Virus record (IMG/VR): IMGVR_UViG_3300032053_017225
Location: 1 to 45,053 of that record
DNA length: 45,053 nucleotides
Strand: one strand, 5' to 3'
Source: a virus
Every line of letters starts with the position of its first letter. The stretch's first letter is position 1. The notes below the pieces were generated by a model. That model made no database searches. It was not told where the DNA came from and saw nothing but the letters and a program-made list of their open reading frames with translations. Of this stretch, positions 3,376-38,364 are shown in pieces. A program made the position numbers and the translations under genes.

Positions 3376-3719
3376 AAGAAGTACCTGGAAAAAGTATAGA
3401 TAGGCGATTTCTCTGGCAATATGTATTAAAGAAAATAAACAATTCAATTCACCACGCTCACGTAATGAGCGTCATTAATATTTTGCTGGACGAGATTGTG
3501 GCAGAGTTAATCTTAAACAAAAAAATCAAGATAATTAATTTTGGACAATTTGTTTTAAGAAAACTTAATCCACGAAAACATTACAATTTATATACTAAAA
3601 AATACGAGATGTCAAAAGGTAATAATATCCTGCGGTTTGAATTGAATAATAAATTGAGGCGTTTTATTATTAAAAACTTAGATGTTGCCAAAACATTCTT
3701 AGAGCCACACGATGAATAG
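3372..3719 (+). CDS. HU/IHF-family DNA-binding protein (second of two)
   Basis: 115 residues. The match to HU/IHF is clearer than in the gene at 1746: a long helix (VMSVINILLDEIVAELILNK), then KIKIINFGQFVLRKLNPRK in place of the family's GFGxFxxxxRxxRxGRNP, and a terminal helix after a strand (ILRFELNNKLRRFI). The basic arm and the Pro that intercalates at DNA kinks appear retained (LNPRKHYN). It probably bends or packages phage DNA and may pair with the 1746 product. Operon overlaps: 4 bases upstream, 8 downstream. Confidence 0.75.
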   Translation: MKEVPGKSIDRRFLWQYVLKKINNSIHHAHVMSVINILLDEIVAELILNKKIKIINFGQFVLRKLNPRKHYNLYTKKYEMSKGNNILRFELNNKLRRFIIKNLDVAKTFLEPHDE

Positions 3720-4086
3720 ATCTCGAAAGGTGGTTTTCGTATGCTGTGGAATTGTTGAAGAAAAAAGCGTCTCTAACACTATCGAAGCCTCCTCTTCAGA
3801 GGAGGCTCTTCAGAAGTTTGAAGAAACTAATAAAGTTAAAGCTGAAAGCTGTCACGGACCTTTCGTTACAAAAAAGGTAATTCAGAAAGAGAAATATACT
3901 AGCGTTGCATTTTCTGGAGAAAATAAGAATGCCATTTATGATGATTGGTATGTGAAGGCATTATTTACTAATGAGCCGCATAACTGCGCATATCTTCTGT
4001 TTGATAAGAGGGTTGATGGAAAACAAGCCCAAAAACCTCAAGGGACTTTTATTGTTAAAAGGGATTATTTAAAGGAAATAAAATGA
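3712..4086 (+). CDS. Unknown protein
   Basis: 124 residues, not recognised. The N-terminus (KVVFVCCGIVEEKSVSNTIE) looks like a beta-strand pair, followed by ASSSEEAL and a helix, as in small alpha/beta domains that sense or bind. Codons for ASSSEEAL form a 10-base perfect hairpin at 3786-3807. It overlaps its neighbours by 8 and 4 bases. Confidence 0.7.
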   Translation: MNRSRKVVFVCCGIVEEKSVSNTIEASSSEEALQKFEETNKVKAESCHGPFVTKKVIQKEKYTSVAFSGENKNAIYDDWYVKALFTNEPHNCAYLLFDKRVDGKQAQKPQGTFIVKRDYLKEIK

Positions 4087-4430
4087 TTAAGAAATCTGTA
4101 TTAGAGAAAATTAAGAAGAGTTTATTGGAAGAGAGATCTGCCATCATGGCAAAAACTTATTCTAGTGAAGTTGATATTGACGGTGATGAAACTGATGAAA
4201 TTCAAGGAAAAATTATTGCCGTTGTAAATCAGCAATTTATCAAGAGGGATGCGCAAAAGCTACTCAAAATTGAAAATGCTTTAAAAAGACTCGAAGATAA
4301 GAATTTTGGATTGTGTGAAGAGTGTGATGAACCCATCGCTTAAAAAAGACTTCAGCATAATCCGGAGTTTTCTAATTGTATTTCATGCGCAGAACAATTG
4401 GAATTCAATAATAAGCAGCATAAAAGATAA
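4083..4430 (+). pseudogene. DksA/TraR-like zinc-finger protein, interrupted by an in-frame TAA
   Basis: The frame encodes 86 residues up to TAA at 4341-4343, ending CEECDEPIA. Continuing past the stop in the same frame gives KRLQHNPEFSNCISCAEQLE and a second stop at 4428-4430. Together they restore the DksA/TraR finger exactly: C-x2-C-x17-C-x2-C, with the usual RL and NP residues between. The N-terminal helix also has a DETDEI segment like the DxxDxA tip that enters the RNA polymerase secondary channel. The stop replaces what is normally Glu, a single-base change from GAA. It is either a nonsense mutation, a sequence error or stop readthrough. An intact protein of 115 residues would modulate host transcription. 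Confidence 0.8.
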
Positions 4431-4462
4431 ATTGATTCATAGCAATATAAATCTATTATAAT

Positions 4463-5170
4463 ATGGAAAGGTTTGCAAAATCTACAGATCCTGTGCAACA
4501 GGCACTTAGAGATCATAAAAAGAATTGGGGTATAGCCTCCAAAGAGTTTATGTCTAAGATTAAGGCGCTTAGAGCGGCTTTAAGCGGTAAAGGCGATTCA
4601 AAATATGGATTGACTCCCAGCAATATTAAAGACCCTTTGCCTCAAGATATAGGCTCTTTCTTATCCGAATTATCTTCAAATTTCCAATTATTAGTGGGGG
4701 AGGCTCAAAAAATTCAGCAAGAACAAGCCAGTTACTCTCAAAATAGAACAAAATCTAAAAAAGAGCTTGGCGCCGCAATCGCTGCCATTGCGCCCAATTT
4801 AGTGAAAACCGCCTCAATTTCTAAAAAGAAAGCCACATTAAAAGTTTCTGAAAAAGAGTTTGAAACTTTAATTGCTATTTCCGAAGAAGAGCAAGCCGCA
4901 GGATTAATGTATGTTCCGCCGCCCGCGCCAGTTATGTCTTTTGTTTATGGAGAGCCGAAGATAAATATTTTTTGGATGAAGAACACTCCGGCGCCATTAG
5001 ATATCGTATTCGCTTTAAATGGTTCAATCATTGCAATTCATGAAGGAGAGCCGCTATCTACAAAAATGATCGGCGGATATACTCCATCAGATTTGGTTGT
5101 AGAATTTCCTAGAGGGAGTTGTGAGAAATTAGGTATTCAAATAGGTGATCCAATTTCGATTGTAAATTAA
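4463..5170 (+). CDS. Protein with C-terminal DUF192 domain
   Basis: 235 residues. From about 135 to the end it matches DUF192: EEQAAGLMYV, then the characteristic FWMKNTPAPLDIVFALNG, EGEPLSTK, a VVEFPRGSCEKLG segment and GDPISI. The role of DUF192 is not established; it occurs mostly as a small, often exported, protein. Here no signal peptide is seen and about 120 residues of helical, Gln/Ser/Lys-rich sequence precede the domain, an unusual architecture. The start lies directly after an AT-rich TATAAAT/TATAAT stretch and lacks an SD. Confidence 0.75.
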   Translation: MERFAKSTDPVQQALRDHKKNWGIASKEFMSKIKALRAALSGKGDSKYGLTPSNIKDPLPQDIGSFLSELSSNFQLLVGEAQKIQQEQASYSQNRTKSKKELGAAIAAIAPNLVKTASISKKKATLKVSEKEFETLIAISEEEQAAGLMYVPPPAPVMSFVYGEPKINIFWMKNTPAPLDIVFALNGSIIAIHEGEPLSTKMIGGYTPSDLVVEFPRGSCEKLGIQIGDPISIVN

Positions 5171-5231: not shown

Positions 5232-6230
5232 ATGTGGCAAGTAGAAAATTTAAATAGCATTTTAGCTGCATTTAAAATTGCAGCTCTTTGTAATAACTTT
5301 TCAGAGTATAAAAATGCCTGCTTTTATGATATAGAGCTAAAGCCGGGTGCGAAGGTTAGGGATATTGAAAAATATTCTACCGAGTTATCTCTTGCTCTTA
5401 AAAAAGCGGGTAAGCCTCGTTTAATTATCTCGCCCGAAGAGGGTATCATTCAGTTAGAGTTTTTAAATTCTAAACGAGAGAAAACTTCGCTATTTGATAT
5501 AGCGTATCAAATTGAGCGTCCTGAGGGAAAATTAACTTGCCTTTTGGGCGAGACTCTCCAAAACGATCCTTTATGGATTGATATTGCTGCTAACCCACAT
5601 TTATTAATTGCCGGAACGACAGGATCAGGCAAGAGCACTTTATTACATACAATCATTGCGAATTTATTATTGTACCCAAAGGTCTCTATCCATTTAATGG
5701 ATCCTAAGAATATTGAATTTTATAAGTATTCAGAGGCTAACCTTCCTAAATTAAATGTAGCTCATGAATTTGCGGACTGTTTAATTATGATTGAGAGTTT
5801 GTGCCTTGAAATGGATTCAAGATATCAAAAAATTAAAGAGAGAAAATTGTTTGCGGATAATTTTCCATTCATAGTTCTAATTATAGATGAATACGCTGAT
5901 TTAATTATGCAAGATGAGAATAAGCTTTTTTATAAGAGTTTAATTCGTTTGGCTCAGAAAAGCCGAGCAGCCGGTATTCATTTAATCATGTCTACTCAAA
6001 GACCGTCTGTCGATGTGATTGATGGAATTATTAAGGCAAATTTTCCGGCAAGAATTTCTTGCAAAGTTTCCAGTCATATCGACTCTAGAATTATTTTAGA
6101 TGCCGTCGGAGCCGAACGTTTAATTGGTTCAGGCGACGCCCTCATCAGAGACTCTAAGTTCGATCTACAAAGATTTCAAGTGGCATATACTTCGCCAGAC
6201 GAAGTTTGTTGCCTTTTTGGTAAAAAATGA
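5232..6230 (+). CDS. FtsK/SpoIIIE-like DNA translocase motor
   Basis: 332 residues containing essentially a complete FtsK motor. Walker A GTTGSGKST is at 128-136, Walker B in VLIIDEYADL around 218, then the FtsK-specific STQRPSVDVIDGIIKANFP, the arginine-rich sensor region and GAERLIGSGDALI. The family pumps double-stranded DNA as a hexamer. Cellular FtsK has an N-terminal membrane domain and a C-terminal gamma DNA-reading domain; both are missing, leaving about 100 residues of alpha-domain-like sequence before the motor. It is therefore probably soluble. Its stop overlaps the next start (ATGA), so it is coupled to the zinc-ribbon protein. Possible roles are genome segregation, resolving concatemers or moving DNA; packaging is less likely without terminase features. 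Confidence 0.9.
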   Translation: MWQVENLNSILAAFKIAALCNNFSEYKNACFYDIELKPGAKVRDIEKYSTELSLALKKAGKPRLIISPEEGIIQLEFLNSKREKTSLFDIAYQIERPEGKLTCLLGETLQNDPLWIDIAANPHLLIAGTTGSGKSTLLHTIIANLLLYPKVSIHLMDPKNIEFYKYSEANLPKLNVAHEFADCLIMIESLCLEMDSRYQKIKERKLFADNFPFIVLIIDEYADLIMQDENKLFYKSLIRLAQKSRAAGIHLIMSTQRPSVDVIDGIIKANFPARISCKVSSHIDSRIILDAVGAERLIGSGDALIRDSKFDLQRFQVAYTSPDEVCCLFGKK

Positions 6231-7243
6231 ATCAAACTTGTTTTATGTGTCCAGGTTGTAGTTTTTTAGGCAAAAAAACTATTTTGCGTTTTAGCAAGAG
6301 GTTTATTTGCGACATATGCTCTTTAAAATTAAAAGGCACCCTAGATCTTAAAGAAAGAGTTTTGCGGAGCACTTTTTCTGAGCATTTAAAAAAAGGATAT
6401 AAGTGCCCAAATTGTAAAAGGTTTATTCCTCAGCCAATGATTGGTAATGATTTATCTTGTCCCTATTATGATTGCCACTTTGTTGGAAATAGATGTGGTC
6501 TGAAAGATATGAAGCATCCTTCGGAATATTTAAGCGTATCTCTAAACGCTTTGCTTGATAAATCAATTCTAAAAGAAGACAAGTCTTTATCGGTGCAATT
6601 ATTGCAAGACTCAATTAATGATGAGATGAACACCGTAGCTTTTAGTAGTAATAATTCGACGGTGATTCATAAAATTTCTATCGGGCAAGCTTTTTTAAAT
6701 CTAACTGACAGAATGCCTACGGAAATGACAGATTATTTGGTACATGGTAAAAAGAATAGTAGCTTACAGAGTAAAATATTTCAAGAATACATCTCTATAC
6801 TAGAATCTAAATTACCATTTATTTATAAGCGCGAAAAACTAAACGTTAGAGTCGATTCATTATTGTCAAGTGAATTATCTTTGTTTGATGGAATAAGTAC
6901 TTTTGAAGCAGTAATCTCTCCAAAAAGAGAGGTTAAAAATGGAACGAAAGAATTTTATGTCGGAGGAAGATCCGCCTTTCACTCTAAACCATTTTATATT
7001 GGTAAGTTGTTAAATGTTATTAATGTTGATAGCAAAGCCTCTTTAATGTCTGACATAAAAGAATACAGTTTTCTGAGAATGTTTTTTAAAACTAGCAAGC
7101 CTGGTACAAAAGTTTTAGTATCCCACTTGAGAGTTCCGCCCCATTATCAGATGGGCGGCATGTCCCATGTAAATAGAATGAGAAAAAGAATAGTAGCAAT
7201 AGTATCAGAAAGATCAAAAGTTATATCTTTATGTAATCCTTAA
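6227..7243 (+). CDS. Multi-zinc-ribbon protein of unknown function
   Basis: 338 residues. The first 90 carry at least two Cys pairs of zinc-ribbon type: CPGC near 8-11 with CDIC near 28-31, and CPNC near 60 with later Cys (CPYYDC, RCG). The rest shows no known motif; the segment HLRVPPHYQMGGMSHVNRM near 300 is distinctive. It overlaps the FtsK-like gene by 4 bases, so a partner or loading role for that motor is plausible but inferred. Its 3' end overlaps the opposite-strand gene by 15 bases. Confidence 0.75.
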   Translation: MNQTCFMCPGCSFLGKKTILRFSKRFICDICSLKLKGTLDLKERVLRSTFSEHLKKGYKCPNCKRFIPQPMIGNDLSCPYYDCHFVGNRCGLKDMKHPSEYLSVSLNALLDKSILKEDKSLSVQLLQDSINDEMNTVAFSSNNSTVIHKISIGQAFLNLTDRMPTEMTDYLVHGKKNSSLQSKIFQEYISILESKLPFIYKREKLNVRVDSLLSSELSLFDGISTFEAVISPKREVKNGTKEFYVGGRSAFHSKPFYIGKLLNVINVDSKASLMSDIKEYSFLRMFFKTSKPGTKVLVSHLRVPPHYQMGGMSHVNRMRKRIVAIVSERSKVISLCNP

Positions 7244-9479: not shown

Positions 9480-9488
9480 CTTAATTTT

Positions 9489-9519
9489 ATATATTTAGGC
9501 GCCTCGGCGCCGGATATAT
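9489..9519 (+). other. GC-rich hairpin after topA
   Basis: GGCGCC TC GGCGCC (9498-9511) is flanked by ATATAT on both sides (9489-9494 and 9514-9519), giving a two-part stem with a small asymmetric internal loop. It directly follows topA. There is no U-run, so it could be a processing site, a 3' stabiliser or part of the leader of the next gene rather than a classic terminator. Confidence 0.5.
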
Positions 9520-9568
9520 GTAATCGTCAGGCTTCACTATTGAAGCCCGACAAACGATACTATTACAT
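9518..9568 (+). other. Long nested stem-loop in the leader of the bS21-like gene
   Basis: ATGTAAT (9518-9524) pairs with ATTACAT (9562-9568). Inside, GTC-A-GGCTTCA (9526-9536) pairs with TGAAGCC-C-GAC (9541-9551) around a CTAT loop, with one A-C mismatch. The total is about 17 pairs, ending 21 bases before the start codon at 9590. A structured leader before a ribosomal protein gene recalls autoregulated ribosomal leaders; that function is inferred. Confidence 0.55.
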
Positions 9569-9589
9569 AGACGAGGTTAGTTGATAAAT

Positions 9590-22169: not shown

Positions 22170-23414
22170 ATGGAAATTTCAGTAAAAGAAACAGAATATT
22201 GTAAATTGGATGTTCATTATGAGGCTGATGAAGAGCTGATTGATGAAAAGAAAGTTGAAGTGCTTTCTTTATTTAAAAAGGCACCAGTTAAAGGATTTAG
22301 AAAAGGTCGCGCCCCAATTGATGCAATCAAAATGCATTATAAAAATCAAATTAATGATGCGTTAAAGCGCGCCCTAACGGAACAAGCCTATCATAATACT
22401 TTGTTTGAAAAAAGCATTAAAGCTTATGGCACTCCTGATTTTAAATCTGCTCTTTTAGAAAAAGATAAATTTACTTGCGAATTCTCTTTGAGAAAAAAAC
22501 CAGATTTTACTTTAGGTCAATATAAAGATTTGGAAGTTCCAAAGCCAGCAGAAGAGAAGCCGGCATCTCATTTATATGAAGAGATCATGCAGGATATTAG
22601 AATTCGTTTTGCCGAAGCTGTTCCTTTTGCCGAAGACGAGTTCATTCAAATGGGCGATAATGTCATTTTGAATTATCGGGTATTTGATGGCGAAAAGCAT
22701 CTCTCTGAATTTGATTCAGAGGGTGAGATGGCAGCAATAGGTAAAAGCAGAATACCGGGATTTGACCAATCTGTTTTGGGGATGAAGGTCGGAGATACCA
22801 GAGAATTTTCATTACAAATTCCAACTGAAGGCGTCATTCCAGATCTTGCGGGAAAAATTCTTAAATTCGCCGTTACCCTAGTTTTAGGCTCTAGAGCAAT
22901 TCCAATGCCATTGAATGATGAGTTAGCTCAAAAAATTGGGAAAGGCTCTTTTGAAGAGATGCAGACGTATGTTATGGGTCTCGCGACTGCAAAGATTGCA
23001 GAGATGGAAAGAGCTAAGTTACTTAATCAAATTAGCGCTAAATTATTAGACATGAATGATATTACCGTTCCAGATTGGTTAAAAGTCTCTGAGGCGCAAT
23101 ACATCGCGGCTCAAGCCAATGTTGAGTGGGATAAGGTAGCCGATGACGTCAAAGAAAAATATATAGAGAACGCAGATAGAAATGTTAAATTGTCTCTTAT
23201 TTTAGATAGAGTTAGAGAGGATGAGCCTACCGCTCAACTTTCCGATCAAGAAGTAATAGAAATGATTAAACAGACTTTATCAAAGGGTTCTGAAAATATT
23301 GATGATTCATTAAAGCAAATGAACCAAAATGGATATTTGGCGGTATTAGTTGCTAGAGTTCGTGATGAGAATACGTTAGATTTTATATTAAAAAATTCTA
23401 AGATTTTAGAATAA
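22170..23414 (+). CDS. tig: Trigger factor-like ribosome-associated chaperone
   Basis: 414 residues, close to the usual 430. The ribosome-binding signature is present at 42-49 (GFRKGRAP, matching the family GFRKGxxP loop that docks on uL23). An FKBP-type PPIase region follows at about 150-245 (GDNVILNYRVFDG, IPGFDQSVLGMKVGDTREF), then the helical C-terminal arms. Trigger factor binds new chains at the exit tunnel. The SD is good (AGAGGA). A phage copy is unusual; it fits with the phage deformylase, bS21 and DnaJ. Aromatic catalytic residues of the PPIase region look partly changed. Confidence 0.9.
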   Translation: MEISVKETEYCKLDVHYEADEELIDEKKVEVLSLFKKAPVKGFRKGRAPIDAIKMHYKNQINDALKRALTEQAYHNTLFEKSIKAYGTPDFKSALLEKDKFTCEFSLRKKPDFTLGQYKDLEVPKPAEEKPASHLYEEIMQDIRIRFAEAVPFAEDEFIQMGDNVILNYRVFDGEKHLSEFDSEGEMAAIGKSRIPGFDQSVLGMKVGDTREFSLQIPTEGVIPDLAGKILKFAVTLVLGSRAIPMPLNDELAQKIGKGSFEEMQTYVMGLATAKIAEMERAKLLNQISAKLLDMNDITVPDWLKVSEAQYIAAQANVEWDKVADDVKEKYIENADRNVKLSLILDRVREDEPTAQLSDQEVIEMIKQTLSKGSENIDDSLKQMNQNGYLAVLVARVRDENTLDFILKNSKILE

Positions 23415-31404: not shown

Positions 31405-31435
31405 CTACACATTTTTATTAATATTAAGGACTATT

Positions 31436-37923: not shown

Positions 37924-38364
37924 ATGGAAAAGAAAAAGAATAGATCAGATTCCTACCAATGGTACCTTTTAGAGAAACTTTACTCTAATGATATGATGGA
38001 GTCATTCAGTAATGATGACTCCATCTCTCATCGTTTGAATCCTTATGAATATAATGAAGATTTATTGGAGCTGGATGATCAGTTGAAGGTAGAGTTTTGG
38101 CGAATTGTTAATGATCTTCTTACGGATAGACAAAAACAAGTCATTAAGTTGTATGCTGACGGATATACGCAAATGGAAATCGCAAAGATGCTCAATGTTA
38201 ATCAAAGTTCCATTACTAAAAGTTTAAATGGCAACGTCGATTACAAAAATGGCAAAAAAATCTACGGCGGGGCTCGTAAGAAAATTAGAAAGATTATAGA
38301 GAACGATACTGCTATTAAAGAAATCCTTGCCAGGATGTCAGAAATTCGCGCAGAAAAATGGTAA
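37924..38364 (+). CDS. Sigma region-4-like HTH protein
   Basis: 146 residues. Residues 70-105 form a sigma-4/LuxR-type HTH: LLTDRQKQVIKLYADGYTQM, EIAKMLNVNQSSITKSLNG. No sigma region 2 is seen. It may be a phage transcription factor, for example directing host RNA polymerase to late genes: the structural block begins just after it. Upstream SD AAGGA. Alternative: a small regulator of sigma origin. Confidence 0.7.
   Translation: MEKKKNRSDSYQWYLLEKLYSNDMMESFSNDDSISHRLNPYEYNEDLLELDDQLKVEFWRIVNDLLTDRQKQVIKLYADGYTQMEIAKMLNVNQSSITKSLNGNVDYKNGKKIYGGARKKIRKIIENDTAIKEILARMSEIRAEKW

Follow-up and report, generated by a model that had tools for sequence, protein, structure and literature searches.

TraR and lambda Orf73 (phrog_54) bind the secondary channel of RNA polymerase (PMC9239242). 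DksA2-type proteins function without a C4 zinc finger, DksA2 itself retaining the entire globular fold (PMC9239242). Here we analysed an interrupted gene resembling these proteins on a virus record of 45,053 bases (this whole stretch is hereafter called the window), a fragment of a huge-phage lineage. With TraR and lambda Orf73 the gene shares a C4 finger and an origin from a mobile element; TraR, however, comprises 73 aa, whereas proteins of the window's lineage carry a complete N-terminal region of the DksA type. Features in common with DksA and DksA2 (PDB 1tjl and 4ijj) are the length class, a coiled coil with an acidic motif, a C-terminal helix and, when the window gene is read through, the finger C-x2-C-x17-C-x2-C, with profile E-values of 2.8e-12 to 4ijj and 2.2e-11 to 1tjl and query-normalised Foldseek TM scores of 0.62–0.79. 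In contrast to both, the window gene is phage-encoded, ~115 aa long, interrupted by a TAA codon and below the NCBIfam equivalog cut-offs (TIGR02420 and NF033459; 52.8 vs. 115.5 and 56.4 vs. 105 bits, respectively). Judged by these sequence scores, it is a DksA-like relative, not DksA proper.

An interrupted DksA-like reading frame

Translation of positions 4083–4430 (+ strand) yielded 86 codons, a TAA at 4341–4343, 28 further codons and a closing TAA. The truncated ORF (4083–4343, +) encodes 86 aa comprising the N-terminal helices, the acidic motif DGDETDEIQ and the cysteine pair C78/C81, and the remainder of the gene (4344–4430, +) continues in the same frame with the KRL and NP residues, the pair C99/C102, the C-terminal helix and the terminal TAA. 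Hence, the 86-aa product holds only the first cysteine pair, and all four cysteines (C78-x2-C81-x17-C99-x2-C102) are reached only in a read-through protein of 115 aa. An initial sequence-only reading had placed the TAA inside a DksA/TraR zinc finger, separating its two cysteine pairs, which translation and a PF01258 match of the read-through product (1.9e-7; 31.4 bits vs. a curated cut-off of 24.9) bore out; its further claims, that reading through restores the C-x2-C-x17-C-x2-C spacing along with the RL and NP residues and that the downstream half has kept frame and cysteines, agree with the translation as well.

The read-through product also matched phrog_54 (3.3e-10). The 86-aa part alone gave no match in a Pfam search and still a weak match to DksA models, and a separate search with the 28 codons past the stop found the dksA C-terminus of two relatives (E-values of 9e-6 and 5e-4). 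The DksA-like ORF is thus not a product of chance, since the codons after the stop match the relatives' dksA and the surrounding gene order is conserved. When the read-through protein was modelled with AlphaFold2 (pLDDT 88.9), the prediction was a coiled-coil fold with a globular zinc domain, matching Pseudomonas aeruginosa DksA2 and Escherichia coli DksA in the PDB. In this model, the stop at residue 87 occupies the first residue of a short helix (87–92) between the cysteine pairs, and both this helix and the C-terminal one (100–114) are missing from the 86-aa product. The sequence GDETDEIQ (DxxDxI/V) is conserved where DksA carries the DxxDxA motif of its coiled-coil tip, a correspondence by region only.

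On its 5′ side, the gene shares 4 nt with an upstream partner of 124 aa without assigned function (3712–4086, +), which precedes dksA in all relatives examined. A 32-nt junction (4431–4462) separates it from a downstream gene of 235 aa with a DUF192 domain at the C-terminus (4463–5170, +). This downstream gene corresponds to two separate genes both in relative L002 (6514–6828 and 6825–7172) and in relative L086 (7991–9139 and 9140–9550), i.e. it is a fusion in the window.

Intact relatives and the age of the stop

For nearly all window genes, homologues occur in matching order in G002 (239 kb) and G003 (112 kb), two huge-phage records. The gene content includes topoisomerase I, FtsK, a RecA/UvsX-like protein, an SbcCD-like nuclease, trigger factor and a DNA polymerase III alpha subunit. 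Using a conserved marker gene (37924–38364), we identified 36 longer records, including G001–G003, the largest measuring 481 kb. The DksA finger scored above cut-off in 27 of these, all with an intact gene reading EKRL, and a DNA pattern search added two records (L220 and L223) that were likewise intact with the same codon state. At the position of the window's TAA, all 29 relatives (23 distinct proteins) therefore carry a glutamate codon, GAA or GAG. Relatives with an intact dksA-clpP-clpP locus (e.g. L002, L086 and L223) share 43–65% DksA identity with the window as well as the order upstream partner, dksA, DUF gene and FtsK; what sets the window apart is its stop and the absence of the clpP-like pair.

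The stop was seen in one contig only. An exact search of viral_contigs for the stop site, with the first base of the stop left free, returned no match and no second copy was found; protein searches with the window's upstream- or downstream-gene sequence alone retrieved no relatives. Among INPHARED phage records there was neither a DNA match nor a close DksA relative, and a single scan of genome_contigs recovered only one distant DksA, from Roizmanbacteria.

With glutamate in all 29 relatives, a single G-to-T change at GAA explains the TAA, as the sequence-only reading had proposed. Between the window and L002, non-synonymous divergence per site amounted to 0.21 upstream of the stop, where the finger part taken alone gave 0.24; the 20 codons that follow the stop gave 0.25, a value that rises to 0.34 once the variable tail is included. 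For the intact pair L002 and L086, the corresponding values were 0.25 (finger part) and 0.27 (20 codons). Moreover, the window kept 11 of the 12 columns that are conserved among the relatives past the stop. As the sequence past the stop has diverged no further than the 5′ finger half or its counterpart in intact pairs, the stop is young relative to the split from L002, an estimate that, given the small numbers (20–28 codons), is a rough bound. The same reading had left a recent event, a sequence error and readthrough side by side and had suggested inspecting close relatives: all proved intact, none combining the same stop with random sequence behind it, and recency gained from the 3′ divergence while readthrough found no support.

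Explanations for the in-frame stop

We consider it probable that the TAA is a recent loss-of-function nonsense mutation, confined to the window phage, in a DksA/TraR-family gene that is core to this huge-phage lineage. A glutamate GAA codon of the phage gene would have turned into TAA, and the resulting 86-aa product, devoid of the second cysteine pair and the C-terminal helix, could not close the zinc-binding globular domain; owing to these missing parts, it is probably non-functional. By analogy with the family, the intact protein would bind the secondary channel of the host RNA polymerase and reprogramme transcription. The window's lineage has also shed the neighboring protease genes, and the stop may form part of a decay of the dksA-clpP-clpP locus.

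In the contig sequence, a real mutation and an error of sequencing or assembly (or a consensus that took up the base of a minor variant, the phage gene being intact) cannot be told apart. An error, which we regard as unlikely, would fit a metagenome contig in which a single base is affected, the 3′ half is fully conserved, all relatives are intact and no other window gene compared is broken; because the 3′ half is conserved, the gene holds no independent sign of decay. On the other hand, only ~5% of single substitutions in the dksA-like coding sequence yield a stop, so that few errors would take this form, and the adjoining loss of the clpP-like genes, unique to the window, is an independent sign of change at the locus. 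Very unlikely, in our assessment, is that the 86-aa protein itself functions with its coiled coil and acidic motif and no closed zinc finger. Both elements are conserved, the truncated part weakly matches DksA models and proteins of the DksA2 type can dispense with a C4 finger; yet DksA2 keeps its whole globular fold (PMC9239242), whereas the window product loses the two helices at 87–92 and 100–114, and, with its 3′ DNA undecayed, the truncation has probably not existed long enough for selection to establish it as a new form.

That the stop is read through, by a suppressor tRNA, as a leaky stop or by recoding, and some full-length protein made, would account for the intact frame and cysteines beyond it, but we hold it to be extremely unlikely. 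TAA ends 45 of the 61 window genes, and in 64 of 73 homologue pairs involving TAA-terminated genes the two ends lie no more than 15 aa apart, on which grounds an alternative code with TAA as a sense codon was rejected. Length exceptions besides dksA resemble lineage extensions, without homology of the same protein past the window's stop, and other strong matches downstream of stops belonged to the genes that follow, which happen to share the frame; among window genes compared with homologues, dksA is thus the only one whose own protein runs on in frame past its stop. Programmed readthrough was not supported either, the relatives having a glutamate codon instead of a conserved stop. A search of the 45-kb window found no tRNA gene, and the RNA downstream of the stop was no more folded than its shuffles (z = -0.74). 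UAA-AAA is not among the known leaky stop contexts. Restart past the stop was rejected for want of an in-frame ATG, GTG or TTG before C99, as was bypass by frameshifting, since the cysteines on both sides lie in one frame and no single shift restores them.

A conserved locus and its losses in the window

By itself, a broken dksA-like gene is ordinary in kind, but its breakage reveals a conserved huge-phage locus that consists of the dksA-like gene, two clpP-like genes and, ~6–9 kb away, a gene for an AAA+ ATPase. The clpP-like genes directly follow dksA in all 29 relatives (e.g. L002, 5339–6501; L086, 6702–7929). Inspection of their sequences indicated that the first protein lacks the usual catalytic serine and histidine and that the second retains them, an inactive and an active copy that presumably resemble ClpR/ClpP pairs. 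In the window, no clpP match was obtained along the entire 45 kb, and the 32-base junction showed no remnant.

About 52 genes of this stretch are common to G002 and G003, and the window lacks four of them at three places: the two clpP-like genes, the AAA+ ATPase (446 aa) and a 140-aa gene. The ATPase gene, located after topA (L094, 3007–4347, –), is present in all 27 records with dksA and clpP and absent from the window (site 9480–9580), where only a weak P-loop match within the FtsK gene was found; among solved structures, AAA+ ATPases such as YjoB and VCP-like proteins came closest to it. The 140-aa gene, of no assigned family (L095, 1670–2092, –) and missing at window positions 31405–31435, was rejected as a part of any common module, since it occurs only here and there across the lineage (7 of 36 records).

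The losses of the clpP-like pair and the AAA+ ATPase suggest a decay of the dksA-clpP-clpP locus in the window's lineage, and we hypothesize that they are functionally linked. Because ~6 of the ~52 genes flank a loss, chance alone would place the stop beside a loss in roughly one case in nine, so that this adjacency is weak evidence of a connection. A bolder, rather doubtful proposal is that dksA, the clpP-like pair and the AAA+ ATPase form one module in which transcription takeover is coupled to phage-directed proteolysis, with the window recording its concerted loss and the dksA stop coming last. A literature search retrieved no description of a dksA-clpP-clpP/AAA+ locus. As a natural member of the lineage minus most of this locus, the window offers a natural comparison for the use of these genes to the phage.

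Two other window genes deserve mention. Positions 6227–7243 encode a protein of 338 aa with ~125 extra N-terminal residues relative to its 212-aa homologue in L002, and a phage-encoded trigger factor (22170–23414; PF05697 and PF05698) is kept in both relatives compared.
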